Below are positions 18,946 through 25,650 of a stretch of DNA of 64,000 nucleotides, in pieces. The notes beneath the pieces were generated by a model, which did no database searches, was not told the DNA's origin, and was given only the letters and a program-made list of their open reading frames with translations. Source of the DNA: Thermosipho sp. (in: thermotogales). GTDB lineage: Bacteria > Thermotogota > Thermotogae > Thermotogales > Fervidobacteriaceae. A program made the translations under genes and the position numbers. Within the stretch, counting starts at the first letter, position 1. Each line of letters opens with the position of its first letter. Location: contig JACDOA010000001.1 of assembly GCA_017656335.1 (NCBI GenBank), positions 124,001 to 188,000 on the forward strand, given 5' to 3'.

Positions 18946-20625
18946 TTAAATAATTACTGTTTCACTATATTCTCCATAAACTTCTCTCAAAGCATTGCTA
19001 ATCTCTCCAACTGTAGCGTAAACCTTTACAGCTTCTATAATATAAGGCATAAGATTTTCATCATTTGTTGCAGCATTTTTTATATTCTTCAATGCCTTTT
19101 TAACCCTTTCATTGTCTCTGCTTTCTTTCAATCTTTTTAAATTACTTTTTTGCTTAACTTCAAGTTCTGGGTTTACCTTTAAAATTTCCTTATGTTCTAA
19201 ATCTTCGTTAATTTGAAATTTATTAACACCCACAATAACTTCTTCACCATTCTCAACAGCAAGCTGCAGTTTGTAAGCACTTTCATGTATTTCTCTTTGG
19301 ACATATCCAGACTCTATTGCTTTAACCATTCCACCTAAAGAATCAATCTTTTCAATATATTCCACAGCTCTTTTTTCAATTTCATTTGTCATATGTTCAA
19401 TTACAAAAGAACCTGCAAGAGGATCTATTGTATCAGCAACACCAGATTCATAAGCAATTATTTGTTGAGTTCTTAAAGCTATCATTGCCGATTCTTCAGT
19501 TGGTAAACCTAAAGCTTCGTCATAGCTATTGGTGTGCAATGATTGGGTTCCTCCTAAAACTGCTGCTAATGCTTGTATAGTTACTCTTACAATATTGTTC
19601 AAGGGTTGTTGAGCAGTTAATGTGGAACCACCTGTTTGAGTATGAAATCTTAGTCTCATTGCTTTTTCATTCGAAACTTTAAATCTATCTTTCATAATCT
19701 TTGCCCAAAGTCTTCTGGCAGCTCTGAATTTTGAAATTTCCTCAAGAAAATTATTATGTGAAGCAAAAAAGAAAGATAACCTTTGTCCAAAAACATTTGG
19801 ATCTAAGCCAACTTTAATCGCTGACTCTACATATGCAATAGCATCAGCTAATGTAAAAGCAACTTCTTGGACAGCTGTAGCGCCAGCTTCTCTTATGTGA
19901 TAACCACTAATACTTATTGGATTCCATTTGGGCATATTTTTAGAACAATATTCAAAAATATCAGTAATAATTTTCATTGATGGTTGTGGAGGAAAAATGT
20001 AAGTTCCTCTTGCAATATATTCTTTTAATATATCATTTTGTATTGTACCAGAAAGTTTATCAAGCGGAACCCCCTGTTTCTCAGCAACAACAATATACAT
20101 TGCAAGTAAAATAGCAGCTGTACTATTAATTGTCATTGAAGTGCTGACTTTATCCAACGGAATTCCATCAAATAAAATTTCCATGTCTTTAAGAGAATCA
20201 ATAGCTACACCAACTTTTCCCACTTCACCTTCAGCCATTGGATCATCTGAATCATATCCAATTTGAGTTGGCAAATCAAAAGCAACAGATAAACCTGTTT
20301 GTCCTTGTGATAATAAATATTTATATCTTTTATTAGATTCTTCAGCAGTGCCAAAGCCAGCATATTGCCTCATTGTCCATAATTTTCCTCTGTACATTGT
20401 TGGTTGAACTCCCCGTGTAAAAGGAAACATTCCGGGAAAACCTAAATCTTCCTGATAATTCAAATTAGAAATATCTAAAGGAGTGTACAATCTTTTTATT
20501 TCATACCCAGAAGTTGACTTAAATTTCTTTTTTCTTTCAGGAAATTTTTGAGTTGTTTTTTCAACTAATGAATTGTATTTTTCTGACTCAATTTTTATTT
20601 TTTTTAATTCATTATCATCAAACAT
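18946..20625 (-). CDS. mcmA1: Methylmalonyl-CoA mutase, catalytic large subunit (no B12-binding domain)
   Basis: It interconverts succinyl-CoA and (R)-methylmalonyl-CoA by an adenosylcobalamin radical. The 559 residues form the substrate-binding TIM barrel only. Key residues match in register with the Propionibacterium enzyme: Tyr88 (RQYAGFG), Arg206 (ARGTYIFPP) and His243 (GYHIREAG). The B12-binding DxHxxG domain is absent, so a separate small subunit must be encoded elsewhere, as in archaeal-type mutases. It follows a class II aldolase by 31 bases and precedes pdxS by 15. The carboxyltransferase OadA upstream in the same operon fits a propionate/succinate pathway. Confidence 0.93.
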
Positions 20626-20656
20626 TTTTTTACCTCCTTTACCAATCTTAAGATAA

Positions 20657-21295
20657 TTATCTAATATCTTTTGAATTCTGTCTATAACTGTTTAAGTATT
20701 TATTCCTAAGTATAACAGCATCTTCTTCATTAATTAAATTAAAATTGCCAATATTCATAGCATACAGAAATATTTCAGCTGTTTTTTCACAAACAAGACT
20801 GGCTGTCAATGCTTCATTAATATCTTGACCAACTGTAATTAAACCATGATTTTTTAAAATTACCGCATGATTGTTTTCTAAAGCCTCAATTACGTTTTGA
20901 GCTAGCTTTAATGTTCCTGGTAAAGCATATTCGGCTACATTTATTTTTGGACCTAAAATCATTACAGCATCTTCTACTAAAGGTGGTATAAAATTACTCA
21001 CTAAAGAAATTGTTGTAGAAAAAACAGGGTGAGTATGAACTATTGCATTAACATCTTTTCTAACTCTGTATATTTCTAAATGTGTTGGTAATTCCGAAGA
21101 TGGTTTTAATCCGGACACATGGGTCCCGTTCATTTCTACTACAGATATATCATCTTCTGTTAAAACATCGTACGGAATTCCAGATGGAGTAATATATATA
21201 AAATTTCCATCTTTTATTGAAATATTTCCCCAAGTGCCTTTTACCAGCCCATTATCAACAATAAATTTAACAGCCTCTAAAATTTTATTTTTCAC
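20657..21295 (-). CDS. Class II aldolase/adducin family protein (FucA-like)
   Basis: A zinc-dependent sugar-phosphate aldolase or dehydratase of 212 residues. Seen: GTWGNISIK near residue 20-28, TPSGIPYD near 36, [12 protein letters not shown] near 67-78 (catalytic Glu), the HTHP zinc ligands near 90-93, and KNHG (third His ligand) near 152. This is the pattern of L-fuculose-phosphate aldolases. Other possible activities are 5-deoxyribulose-phosphate aldolase or methylthioribulose-phosphate dehydratase. I chose the GTG at 21295 with AGGAGG just upstream; the longer frame would overlap acpS-folK. It lies between acpS-folK and mcmA in one operon. Confidence 0.85.
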
Positions 21296-21308
21296 ATTGT
21301 CCCTCCTA

Positions 21309-22127
21309 TCACAACTTCTTATATTCCCAATCAATTTTTTCCCAATTTTTCTTTAATTTGAATGAATATTCACTGATTTTTTTCGCATGAATTGGATGAC
21401 AAAAATCTGATGAAATTTCTGCCATTGGTACAATAAAAAAATCTCTATTTTCAAAATCATAATGAGGAATTTTTAGTTCAGGTAAATCAACAACTAAATT
21501 TCCATAAAATAAAATATCAATATCTATATTTCTAGGACCCCACTTAATTTTTCGTACTCTTCCCATCTTTTTTTCAATTTCCAAAACTGTTTCTAACAAT
21601 TGATAAGGAGACAAATCAGTATCTATTTCAATTACTATATTTAAAAAATCTTCTTGATTAGATAAACCATAAGGTTTCGTTTTATATAAACTAGAAACTT
21701 TTAAAATTTTGATTCCTTTTAAGTCCAATTCGCATAAAGCATCAGTCAGATTTTTAACTTTATCGCCCATATTACTTCCTAATCCTAAAAATACTTTTCC
21801 TTCAACTTTTTCCAAAATCACAGATGAAATAGCAAATAAATCATGACTTAAAGAGACATGACAGAAGTTAAATCCTAAAAAATCCTTATGAAATACACAA
21901 AAAGGTTTTCCTTTAATGTTGTTGATAAATGAAACATCTTTAAATGAATTTTCACCAATTCCCGTCCCTAGTGCCTTAAAAAATGCTTCTTTAAGTGAAA
22001 AACGCCCAGCTAAATATTGGGCGTCAATTTTTTTATCTTTTTTTTCAAATTCTGTAAGAACTTTCTTTTCTAATTTCAAATTAATCCTTTTAATCTCAAC
22101 AATATCATTTCCTATTCCTATAATCAA
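21309..22127 (-). CDS. acpS-folK: Fusion of holo-ACP synthase (AcpS) and HPPK (FolK)
   Basis: Two enzymes in one 272-residue chain. Residues 1-107 are AcpS, which attaches phosphopantetheine to acyl carrier protein: GIGNDIVEI with Asp8, GRFSLKEAFFKALGTG with Glu47 (both magnesium ligands), and VSLSHD near 91-96. Residues 110-272 are 6-hydroxymethyl-7,8-dihydropterin pyrophosphokinase of folate synthesis: FLGLGSNMGDK at 113-123, and WGPRNIDIDILFYG at 196-209 with its magnesium Asp pair, followed by IPHYDFENRDF. The linker is only two or three residues. The start is TTG overlapping the oadA stop (TTGA). Both active sites look intact. Confidence 0.92.
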   Translation of the reverse strand: MIIGIGNDIVEIKRINLKLEKKVLTEFEKKDKKIDAQYLAGRFSLKEAFFKALGTGIGENSFKDVSFINNIKGKPFCVFHKDFLGFNFCHVSLSHDLFAISSVILEKVEGKVFLGLGSNMGDKVKNLTDALCELDLKGIKILKVSSLYKTKPYGLSNQEDFLNIVIEIDTDLSPYQLLETVLEIEKKMGRVRKIKWGPRNIDIDILFYGNLVVDLPELKIPHYDFENRDFFIVPMAEISSDFCHPIHAKKISEYSFKLKKNWEKIDWEYKKL

Positions 22128-23500
22128 ACAGGATAACCTCCTCCAAATTCCTCAGCCAGATCCAAGTCAATCAAAATTTTTTCTTCATATTTTTCTTTTA
22201 AATACTTTCTACCAATTTCACCAAGTATGGTATATATCAATAACTCTTCATCATTAGAAGCAAGAATTCCTATTGATTTTCTGGCTTTTTCGATTTCTGG
22301 TTCCAATAAATCAGCGGGTCTACATTCAATAGGTTTTTCTTTACCTAAAATTTTCTCTAAAAGTTCTTTATCAACAGGTGCTGGTGGTTTTCCATACATA
22401 CCCTTTAAATAATTTTTCACCTCATTGGTAACTTTTGAATATCTTTCACCTGTCAATACGTTTAAAACCGCCTGAACACCGACAATTTGACTGGTAGGAG
22501 TCACCAATGGAGGATATCCCAAATCTTTTCTAACTCTAGGGATTTCCTTCAATACTTCGGGTAGTTTATGTAACATCTTCTGTTCAGAAAGTTGTTTTAC
22601 CAAATTTGAATACATTCCTCCCGGAACTTGTGAAACCAAAACCCTATAATCTATACTTAACATTGATACATCATATTCTTTGTATTTTTCACGGACTTTT
22701 TTAAAGTGTTCTACTAAATATTCTACTTTTTCCCAATCAATATCTTCAAGCTTTCTATATTCTTTAGCGGAATAGTACAGAGATTCAAATGGAGGTTGAG
22801 AAGTTCCCAAAGCAAAAGGTGATAGAGCAGTATCTACATAATCTACTCCTGCTTCAATTGCTGCAATGTAATTCATATCTCCCAATCCAGCAGTCGAATG
22901 AGTATGAACTTCCACAGGAATATCAAAATTCTTTTTTAATTGTAAAACAAGTTCATAGCTTTTTTTAGGTGTTAAAAGTCCAGCCATATCTTTTATACAC
23001 AAAGAATGTACGCCTCTTTCTACAAGTTGTCTAGCAAATTCTATAAAATATTCTATTGTATGAACTGGACTTATTGTATACGAAATAGCTCCTTGAACAT
23101 GGGCACCGTTTTTGAGTGCAACTTCAATGCTTTTTTCTAGGTTCCGAATATCATTTAAAGCATCAAAAATTCTTATTTTTTCAACACCATTTTCAATTGC
23201 TTTCTTGATAAATAACTCAACTACATCATCGGCATAATGTCTATATCCAACCAAATTTTGACCTCTTAATAACATCTGAGTTTTTGTTCTTTTTAAATTT
23301 TTCTTAATTATTCTAATTCTTTCCCAGGGATCTTCTTTTAAAAAACGAACACAAACATCAAATGTAGCACCACCCCAAACTTCCATGGCTTCAAAATTTA
23401 ACTCATCCATATATGGAAGAGTAGGTATCATATCAATTGTTCTCATTCGAGTAGCAATAAGTGATTGATGACCATCTCTCAAAGTTGTATCCACAAACAT
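22124..23500 (-). CDS. oadA: Oxaloacetate decarboxylase/transcarboxylase-type carboxyltransferase, alpha subunit without biotin domain
   Basis: A TIM-barrel carboxyltransferase of the OadA/5S/pyruvate-carboxylase-B family. It transfers a carboxyl group between oxaloacetate or pyruvate and biotin. Visible: FVDTTLRDGHQSLIATR at the start (metal Asp and substrate residues), GGATFDVCVRFL near 43, CIKDMAGLLTP near 170 (carbamylated Lys), and EVHTHSTAGLGDMNY near 198 (HxH metal ligands). At 458 residues it ends before the biotinyl domain, so a separate biotin carrier protein is needed. With mcmA in the same operon it suggests sodium-pumping decarboxylation or transcarboxylation in succinate/propionate metabolism. 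Confidence 0.9.
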   Translation of the reverse strand: MFVDTTLRDGHQSLIATRMRTIDMIPTLPYMDELNFEAMEVWGGATFDVCVRFLKEDPWERIRIIKKNLKRTKTQMLLRGQNLVGYRHYADDVVELFIKKAIENGVEKIRIFDALNDIRNLEKSIEVALKNGAHVQGAISYTISPVHTIEYFIEFARQLVERGVHSLCIKDMAGLLTPKKSYELVLQLKKNFDIPVEVHTHSTAGLGDMNYIAAIEAGVDYVDTALSPFALGTSQPPFESLYYSAKEYRKLEDIDWEKVEYLVEHFKKVREKYKEYDVSMLSIDYRVLVSQVPGGMYSNLVKQLSEQKMLHKLPEVLKEIPRVRKDLGYPPLVTPTSQIVGVQAVLNVLTGERYSKVTNEVKNYLKGMYGKPPAPVDKELLEKILGKEKPIECRPADLLEPEIEKARKSIGILASNDEELLIYTILGEIGRKYLKEKYEEKILIDLDLAEEFGGGYPV

Positions 23501-23515
23501 ATTACTTACTCCTTT

Positions 23516-25612
23516 TTAATTATTTTTTTGTTCATTTCCTTCGTCGAAAGTTAATTTTTTATTTACTTTTTTAATAACTGCAAATTCCAATTCATCGCCT
23601 TCTCTAATATCATCAAAGTTTTCTAGTTTAATACCACATTCTTGAGGAGCATCAACTCTTTTAACATCTTGTTGATAATGCTTTAGTGATTCAATTTTCC
23701 CTTCAAATATTAGTTTACCATTTCTATAAAGCCTAGCTATTCCAGTTTTTTCAACATAACCCTCATACATTTGAACTCCAGCTACAGAACCAAGCTTTTT
23801 TATTTTAAATACCTTTTTAATTTCTCCTCTACCAGTAATTTCTTCAACTTCTTCAGGTTCTAACATTCCTTCAAGAGCAGCACGTAAGTCGTCAATTAAT
23901 TTGTAAATAATCGTATAAGTTTTGATTTGGATCCCTTCAGCTTCGGCCATTTTCCTTGATTGACTATCCGCTTTTACTCTAAAACCTAAAATTATCGCAT
24001 CAGAAGCTGAAGCTAACATAACATCACTCGTTGTAATTGCTCCTACAGCAGAATGGATAATATTAATCCTAACTTCTTCACTTTGAAGTTTTTGTATAGC
24101 AGTATTTAATGCCATAACTGAACCCAAAGTATCTGCTTTTATAATCAATCTTAATTCTTTTTGTTCAGATTGTTCCATCATTTTCAAAATTTCTTCTAAT
24201 TTCAAATGTCTTTTCCTTCTAAGTTCTTTCTGTTCCATTTCTTTAATCTTTTCAGTAATTTCACGTGCTTTGTCAAGATTTTCAACAGAATAAATCACAC
24301 TATGAGCATCCGGTAAGTCCTCAAAACCAACTATCATAACCGGAGTTGATGGTCCAGCTTCCTTGATTCGCTTTCCTTGATCATTTACCAACGCTTTTAC
24401 CTTTCCCATTACTTTGCCCGCTACAACATAATCACCAATTTTTAATTTACCATCTTTAACAATTGCATTTGCAACAGGGCCAAAACCTTTATCAAGTCTT
24501 GTTTCTATTGTTACAGCTCTAACAGGACCATCAGAAATTGCCTTAATTTCCTGCATTTCAGCAACTAATAAAATCATTTCCAATAATGTATCGACATTTT
24601 GACCTTTTTTCGCAGAGATTGGAACCATAATTGTATCTCCGCCCCATTCTTCTGGAATTAAGGAAAGTTTATTAACCAATTCTTGTTTAGTTAATTCAAC
24701 ATTGGCATTTGGCTTATCTATTTTATTGATTGCAACTATTATTGGAACATTTGCAGATTTTGCATGATTATAGGCCTCAATAGTTTGTGGCATAACACCA
24801 TCGTCAGCAGCAACGACAAGAACCACTATATCAGTAGCCTGCGCTCCTCTAGCTCTCATTTCTGTAAAAACTTCGTGTCCCGGAGTGTCAATAAAAGTAA
24901 TTTTTTTACCATTAACTTCAACTTGATAAGCACCAATACTTTGAGTAATTCCTCCTTCTTCTCTTTCGGCAACTCTTGTTCTTCTGATATAATCTAACAA
25001 AGTAGTCTTTCCATGGTCTACGTGCCCCATAACCGTAACTATTGGAGGCCTTTCAACAAGATTTTCTTTATTTTTATATTTTTCTTCGAAATATTTTTCA
25101 ATTTCTTCAAGTGGATTTTCTTTTACTTCTTCTTTAGTTTCTTCAATATCAAATCCAATTCTAACATCATATAATTTAGCTATTTTTTTAGCAAGTTGCA
25201 AATTTAATGTTTGACCAGGTTTTAAAATTTCACCTTTCATGAAAAAATCTTGTATAATTCTATTTTGTGGTATTCCTATTTTCTCTGAAAATTTATCTAA
25301 TTTTAAATCCTCTTCAGAGATTTTTACTAAAGACTTTTTCTTCTCAGGCTTTTCTTTTTCTACTTCACCTTTTTTAGAAATTCGCTTCTTATCATAGATT
25401 TCTTCTTCAAGTTCCAATAATTCTTCATATTCATCAAATTCTTCTTCATCTTCAGATTTGCTATACATTTCAAGCAAAATATTTACTGTTTCTTCATCAA
25501 TAAAACTCATATGGCTTTTTATCTCAATTCCAAGATCTGCCAATTCTTTCATGAGTTCTTTAGTATCCATTTCAAGCTGTCTAGCTAATTCATATACTCT
25601 TAAACGGCCCAA
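23516..25612 (-). CDS. infB: Translation initiation factor IF-2
   Basis: A GTPase that delivers initiator tRNA to the 30S subunit. Of about 698 residues, the N-terminal region has an IF2_N domain ([19 protein letters not shown]) and a charged linker. The G domain has [12 protein letters not shown] (G1) near 195, DTPGHEVF (G3) near 240 and NKIDKPN (G4) near 295. Beta-barrel and C-terminal fMet-tRNA-binding domains follow ([19 protein letters not shown] near the end). I chose the TTG at 25612: GGAGG at 25621-25625 is 8 bases upstream, and the peptide then begins like other IF-2 proteins; the in-frame GTG at 25621 overlaps that site. Confidence 0.96.
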
Positions 25613-25650
25613 ATAAACCACCTCCTACGTTGCTCATACATTATAACATA

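Follow-up and report, generated by a model that had tools for sequence, protein, structure and literature searches.

Enzyme fusions often join successive steps of one pathway. In the described fusions of HPPK (FolK), namely FolB-FolK and FolK-FolP (PDB 2cg8, 3mcm and 2bmb), the partners act at neighbouring steps of folate synthesis. HPPK also occurs as a stand-alone enzyme (PF01288, TIGR01498), and so does the holo-ACP synthase AcpS (PF01648, TIGR00516), which is 115-130 residues long in most AcpS models. A type of AcpS with a long C-terminus is represented by PDB 5xum and by the NCBIfam model NF011255 (169 positions). We take 5xum to be a protein from Thermotoga maritima; no study of 5XUM was found in the open-licence literature. 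A laboratory mutant of E. coli HPPK, V83G/del84-89 (PDB 1rtz, 1ru1 and 1ru2), shows that the HPPK scaffold folds despite a partial deletion of loop 3; its structures match the model of the fusion described here at Z about 22.

The gene described here lies in a stretch of 64,000 nucleotides of Thermosipho DNA (the window) and combines the two stand-alone types. It has the domain and motif region of stand-alone AcpS, but the AcpS part, of about 106 residues, runs straight into HPPK. It has a complete HPPK fold and shares with the FolB-FolK and FolK-FolP proteins the fact that HPPK is fused, but its partner acts in fatty-acid synthesis and CoA use and not at a neighbouring folate step. The searches covered 61 relatives; f1 denotes the family of the window, and f2 and f3 are other families of the same order, all assigned according to a kinship table.

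The fusion gene and its two active sites

A first-pass annotation of the window had proposed an AcpS-FolK fusion at 21309-22127, without naming a strand. This is confirmed by two curated families that meet on a single open frame of 272 codons, free of internal stops, which runs on the minus strand from a TTG start (22127-22125) to a TGA stop (21311-21309; Table 1). Pfam places ACPS (PF01648) at residues 4-93 (1.7e-13, 51 bits, cut-off 25) and HPPK (PF01288) at residues 113-239 (2.4e-39, 134.8 bits, cut-off 25.7), and the NCBIfam models acpS (TIGR00516, 67.8 bits against 59.8) and folK (TIGR01498, 143.7 bits against 54.1) agree. The annotation's estimate of about 107 AcpS residues and a linker of two or three comes close, as AcpS ends at about residue 106 and about 3-5 residues separate it from HPPK. 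Its TTG start overlapping oadA was borne out as well: the tetranucleotide TTGA (22127-22124) is shared with the stop codon of the oadA-like gene.

Table 1. Coordinates of the fusion gene, its parts and its upstream neighbour in the window
Feature	Position	Strand	Basis
acpS-folK fusion gene	21309..22127	minus	272 aa; ORF call, two family models, orthologues
AcpS (holo-ACP synthase) domain, residues 1-106	21810..22127	minus	Pfam and NCBIfam; end at about residue 106 by alignment
Linker, about residues 107-109	21801..21809	minus	AcpS end at about 106, HPPK strand 1 modelled at 112-118
HPPK (FolK) domain, residues 110-272	21312..21800	minus	Pfam, NCBIfam, model pLDDT, structure match
HPPK segment E167-N210 (strand 3, helix 2, catalytic loop, strand 4)	21498..21629	minus	44 residues in 29/29 fusions; 27 in 13/13 putative relics
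TTGA overlap, fusion start codon with TGA stop codon of upstream oadA-like gene	22124..22127	minus	Sequence; register common to 29 loci
oadA-like carboxyltransferase gene (PYC_OADA, HMGL-like), upstream, conserved neighbour, outside the fusion	22124..23500	minus	

Both sets of catalytic residues had been described as intact, and the residues expected at the two active sites are indeed invariant in all 16 aligned fusions. In the AcpS half these are D8, E47 and K51, which we take to be the conserved metal and CoA-site residues. In the HPPK half they are R190, R192, W196, R199, D202, D204, H222 and R228, presumably the loop-3 arginines and tryptophan, the two aspartates and the histidine, equivalent to residues of E. 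coli HPPK. The linker retains a single invariant glycine across the same 16 proteins. By its sequence, the window gene is a true fusion of AcpS and HPPK in which the expected catalytic residues are in place.

The structure model of the HPPK half is good (block means of pLDDT 92-97 over residues 111-250) and matches solved HPPK structures with Z up to 26.7, the value reached with 4crj (VIA Z, rmsd 1.3 over 158 residues). For the AcpS half the model is poor (block means 37-58), and the alignment behind it had no AcpS rows. With the AcpS half in this state, 5xum is not among the 50 structure matches listed for the fusion model, an absence that has no bearing on how the C-terminus of 5xum folds.

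The surrounding minus-strand run (window 18946-25621) comprises IF-2, the oadA-like gene, acpS-folK, a class II aldolase and methylmalonyl-CoA mutase, with IF-2 upstream of oadA and the last two genes downstream of the fusion. The oadA gene adjoins the fusion in f1 and f2, and the mutase comes next in f1; a class II aldolase between fusion and mutase was not found in the g2 and g3 loci.

Distribution, copy number and folate context

Both domains lie in one frame in 20/20 f1 genomes and 10/11 f2 genomes. Besides the window's own genome, 29 genomes carry the fusion, at 49-76% identity. In the f1 genome G019 the gene is in two pieces at contig ends, and in G011 the match crosses one TAG near its end, the ORF there reaching window residue 254. 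In the f2 genome G040, which is 71% complete, neither AcpS nor HPPK was found. The fusion is an established trait of f1 and f2 within the order. At the 29 loci with an upstream gene (L001-L029, window included), an oadA-like gene overlaps the assigned fusion start, and the register is the same in 29/29: the first base of the fusion start codon is also the last base of the final sense codon of oadA. A frameshift joining two neighbours, which the first-pass annotation had named as a danger to its proposal, is excluded, and so is a chimera or assembly error, because both domains share one frame in 29 further genomes.

The third family, f3, has AcpS in 13/14 genomes, with 47-54% identity to the AcpS half of the window protein, and there the window match ends at residue 114-155; no AcpS match was found in the f3 genome G041. 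In the rest of the class, the two enzymes are separate, since HPPK frames reach 224 residues at most in the 37 genomes that have one, and the AcpS ORFs examined, 16 in number, have 118-178 residues. AcpS frames of 500 residues in f4 and f7, obtained by reading through one stop, were rejected as fusions; the ORFs themselves have 123-133 aa.

Outside the phylum, no AcpS was found in any ORF examined at 80 HPPK loci, the 80 best-scoring among 585 relatives in a scan of species genomes. Thirteen genomes of other phyla gave nine with both domains at different places and four with HPPK only. In a phylum sample of 398 genomes, no AcpS-HPPK fusion was seen among the matches listed, which are the best-scoring part; the two rows that reach furthest into the AcpS half are FolB with FolK, fused in one case and side by side in the other. 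Two further phylum samples, in which only matches at E 1e-48 or better counted, gave zero matches in 120 genomes (run without a positive control) and one match, to HPPK only, in 121 genomes. Two viral-contig scans found no relative. The first-pass annotation did not know the fusion as a common architecture and suggested a search for it. Outside the order that impression fits the 80 HPPK loci and the three phylum samples, though a diverged fusion elsewhere could have escaped these scans; within the order the fusion is a settled feature of two families. It had further allowed that the fusion might already be described, and no title or abstract on an AcpS-HPPK fusion was found in the open-licence literature.

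One ACPS match per genome was obtained in 43/45 genomes of the order, and HPPK gave a single match in all 30 f1 and f2 genomes in which it was found. A look for separate acpS or folK copies, also suggested with the annotation, found none, either in the genome of the window or elsewhere in f1 and f2. The rest of the pterin route is nearly always present: FolE2 in 19/20, PTPS in 18/20 and DHPS in 18/20 f1 genomes, and each of the three in 11/11 f2 genomes (38 FolE2, 37 PTPS and 37 DHPS over the cut-off among the 45 genomes of the order). FolB was found in 0/45 genomes of the order, and a GTP cyclohydrolase I of a type other than FolE2 was not found in the window's genome. PTPS has been proposed as a replacement of FolB (PMC4224340). 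Judging by these genes, f1 and f2 have a pterin branch with PTPS instead of FolB. With FolE2, PTPS and DHPS present, the fused HPPK is therefore the only candidate found for a step that is needed. Both halves of the fusion are very probably active, because it supplies the only AcpS and the only HPPK found per genome while FolE2, PTPS and DHPS are retained nearly everywhere.

The window's genome has FolE2, PTPS and DHPS on different contigs, and PTPS and FolE2 are adjacent in f2. The f2 DHPS at L168:2993-4240 (G030) has 416 residues, with the DHPS part at 161-400 and no Pfam match at E 1e-5 in residues 1-160; most f2 frames and 4/5 f9 folP ORFs are of similar length.

A candidate HPPK relic on AcpS of family f3

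Counted from just past the last AcpS strand, the f3 AcpS proteins carry a C-terminal extension of 57-76 residues, and one of them is identical to PDB 5xum over 169/169 residues. In an alignment, the extension matches HPPK strand 1 and the stretch from strand 3 to 'YGN'. Profile-profile comparison of 13 f3 extensions with 29 fused HPPKs (hhalign) gave a score of 31.1 (P 6.4e-5, probability 64%), on the same sequences as the alignment from which the idea of a relic had first arisen. Against column shuffles the score was 30.9, reached by 0/400 shuffles (mean 12.3, s.d. 2.65; one shuffle was highest at 28.4), and the reversed profile scored 14.0. The signal is stronger in the carboxyl part of the extension (28.0; 0/300 shuffles as high, null highest 20.5) than in the amino part (15.0; 2/300 as high, null highest 18.2). 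When an HMM of the extension was run against 3102 ORFs that did not include f3 AcpS, fusions took the first eleven places among the proteins (best E 0.0054).

The likeness is strongest to the fused HPPKs. Taken separately, those of f1 scored 30.7 and those of f2 23.7, and the 80 HPPKs of other phyla scored 21.7, with 0/100 shuffles as high in each of these three comparisons. FolK of f9 and f11 gave 17.1, aligned at another place (2/100 shuffles as high), and FolK of f5 gave 13.2 (14/100). The extension's score with f3's own FolK was background (11.1; 49/100), as were those with the decoys DHPS (14.0; 25/100) and AcpS (12.0; 23/100). Between the same anchors there are 27 residues in 13/13 extensions and 44 in 29/29 fusions, a shared deletion of 17 residues.

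Read on the fusion model, the extension seems to keep strands 1 to 4 and helix 2, and seems to be without most of helix 1, the loop between strands 2 and 3, loop 3 and everything past strand 4. Unlike the window protein, the 5xum-type AcpS would thus end in an HPPK-like remnant that has neither loop 3 nor the metal-binding aspartates; the aspartate pair is absent from the f3 extension in both alignments. The E. coli mutant mentioned above is only partly comparable, since the f3 remnant is without 17 residues at that place and much more elsewhere. We speak of an HPPK relic and not of a family member, because the Pfam HPPK model, at E up to 10, found no match in 6/6 f3 proteins tried. The profile tests point to the extension being a relic of the fused HPPK. 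This relic in a sister family is new here and was absent from the first-pass annotation.

Codons were compared in 78 f3 pairs; in five of these, the synonymous distance is below 1.5 for relic and core alike and the relic shows changes. The ratio of non-synonymous to synonymous change in the relic is 0.08 for G037-G033, 0.13 for G021-G033 and 0.17 for G021-G037 (AcpS core 0.06, 0.07 and 0.04). It is 0.47 for G031 with G027 and with G029 (AcpS core 0.13 and 0.12), both values setting one protein, G031, against two nearly identical ones. The other f3 pairs are saturated or without change and were given no weight, including one saturated pair that reaches 0.91. In most pairs, change is quicker in the relic than in the AcpS core. 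By this codon measure, the extension is constrained, less tightly than the AcpS core. That the fused HPPK shed its substrate loops in f3 and was kept under selection as a non-catalytic domain in the service of AcpS is, in our estimation, the probable course, held with some reserve.

The HPPK supply of f3 differs between genera. A separate FolK lies directly behind FolP in 8/14 f3 genomes (genera g7 and g9), and in the g7 genome G031 PTPS, FolE2, FolP and FolK form a compact run (L044:2102-4529). The first-pass annotation had offered genome compaction as a cause of the fusion; this is unsupported, because f3 genomes of like size (1.6-1.9 Mb) keep folK apart. Its other suggestion, shared use of an adenine-nucleotide-type substrate pool, is neither favoured nor disfavoured by the data. 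In six f3 genomes (g8, g12 and g14: G023, G039 and G041-G044), neither HPPK nor FolE2 nor PTPS nor DHPS over the cut-off was found. In five of the six, DHPS matches weakly to frames of 780-847 residues, presumably methionine synthase. Pterin synthesis appears to have been lost in these six genomes, and external folate should therefore be needed. FolP also adjoins or overlaps FolK in 10/10 f5 loci and 4/5 f9 loci, with a gap in the fifth f9 locus; at the 10 loci examined from f1 and f2, the roughly 3 kb around FolP contain no FolK.

The neighbours of acpS in f3 are a methyltransferase and trigger factor in g7 (L031:2915-6096) and WecG-like and NusA genes in g12 (L040:3442-6792); oadA was not found beside acpS in f3 loci. 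Near the acpS of G031, phosphoglycerate kinase and triosephosphate isomerase share one frame of 654 residues (L031:904-2865), a fusion known from Thermotoga.

Origin, alternatives and meaning

The AcpS tree (113 columns) did not recover f3 as one clade, and none of the clades tested was rejected (AU p 0.21 for f3, 0.19 for f2 with f3, 0.37 for the whole order). The best HPPK trees did not join the fused HPPKs of f1 and f2 to the exclusion of all outgroups, and their union as one clade was not rejected (AU p 0.134). In the HPPK tree, built from the 64 rows of the class together with 28 of the 80 from other phyla, the separate f3 FolK grouped with f5 and a Caldisericota sequence (94/90), away from the fusions. 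This position does not favour the idea that f3 FolK is a split-off half of the fusion; holding the HPPKs of f1, f2 and f3 together costs 37 log units and was not rejected (p-AU 0.095). DHPS trees (7 f1 and 3 f2 genomes as representatives; L089, L053, L117 and the partial L070 dropped) neither show nor exclude a horizontal gain of the f3 folP-folK pair (AU p 0.381 for f1, f2 and f3 together).

The fusion most likely originated once, no later than the common ancestor of the order. We infer one origin and one decay from the shared junction, neighbour and deletion and not from a resolved tree. In the simplest history, an ancestor with folP-folK would have had a copy of HPPK that became fused to AcpS in the ancestor of the order. 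The separate folK would then have been lost in f1 and f2, which keep the fusion as their one gene for both enzymes. At the base of f3, the fused copy would have lost its catalytic loops by the deletion common to the family, the remnant persisting as a conserved accessory domain on AcpS. Genera g7 and g9 would have retained, or regained, folP-folK, and the rest of f3 would have lost the pathway.

The history could also have been one of two independent fusions, in f1 and in f2, with an unrelated f3 tail that resembles HPPK by chance. The best HPPK trees and the failure of Pfam to see HPPK in the f3 proteins would fit such a history. However, f1 and f2 have the same junction, the same oadA neighbour and the same overlap, their HPPKs are compatible with one clade, and the score of the f3 tail with fused HPPK exceeds those of shuffles and decoys, the deletion in the tail being constant, so that we hold independent fusions to be quite improbable. 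An artefact of assembly or sequencing that joined neighbouring genes is of negligible probability, the fusion recurring in 29 other genomes at the identities given above.

Other alternatives concern what the fused HPPK does. Judging by the f3 relic, AcpS seems able to retain a non-catalytic remnant, and the HPPK of the fusion might, by analogy, be no longer catalytic and a structural aid to AcpS. The invariance of its expected catalytic residues in 16/16 fusions and the failure to find another HPPK where FolE2, PTPS and DHPS are kept make this very improbable. It is also conceivable, though unlikely, that the fusion couples the two pathways, for instance by making folate synthesis responsive to the CoA or ATP state or by tethering HPPK to an AcpS trimer. 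Solved AcpS homologues are trimers, an arrangement that would bring three HPPKs together, and the fusion has been maintained in two families. Against coupling speak the established chemistry, in which AcpS and HPPK have no substrate or product in common, the ability of f3 to manage without an intact fusion, and the short linker with its single invariant glycine.

Together, our data favour a bifunctional fusion of single origin in the order that decayed to an accessory relic in f3, a reading in which we place high confidence. In the intact protein, the AcpS half would transfer 4'-phosphopantetheine from CoA to acyl carrier protein, and the HPPK half would serve folate synthesis by transferring the pyrophosphate of ATP to 6-hydroxymethyl-dihydropterin. 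Most probably the two halves act separately, and channelling would not be expected, because the product of neither half is the substrate of the other. In f3, HPPK would come from a separate folK beside folP, or the pathway would be gone.

The AcpS-HPPK fusion thus joins two unlinked pathways, has been maintained over two families and is the sole copy found of both enzymes, so that annotation of either half by itself overlooks the other. Should the relic prove real, the order would offer a before-and-after pair, an intact fusion and a stripped remnant with a solved structure, in which to study how a catalytic domain turns into an accessory domain. The relic would also account for the AcpS extension that Pfam leaves blank, and it would be a shared derived character of the order.
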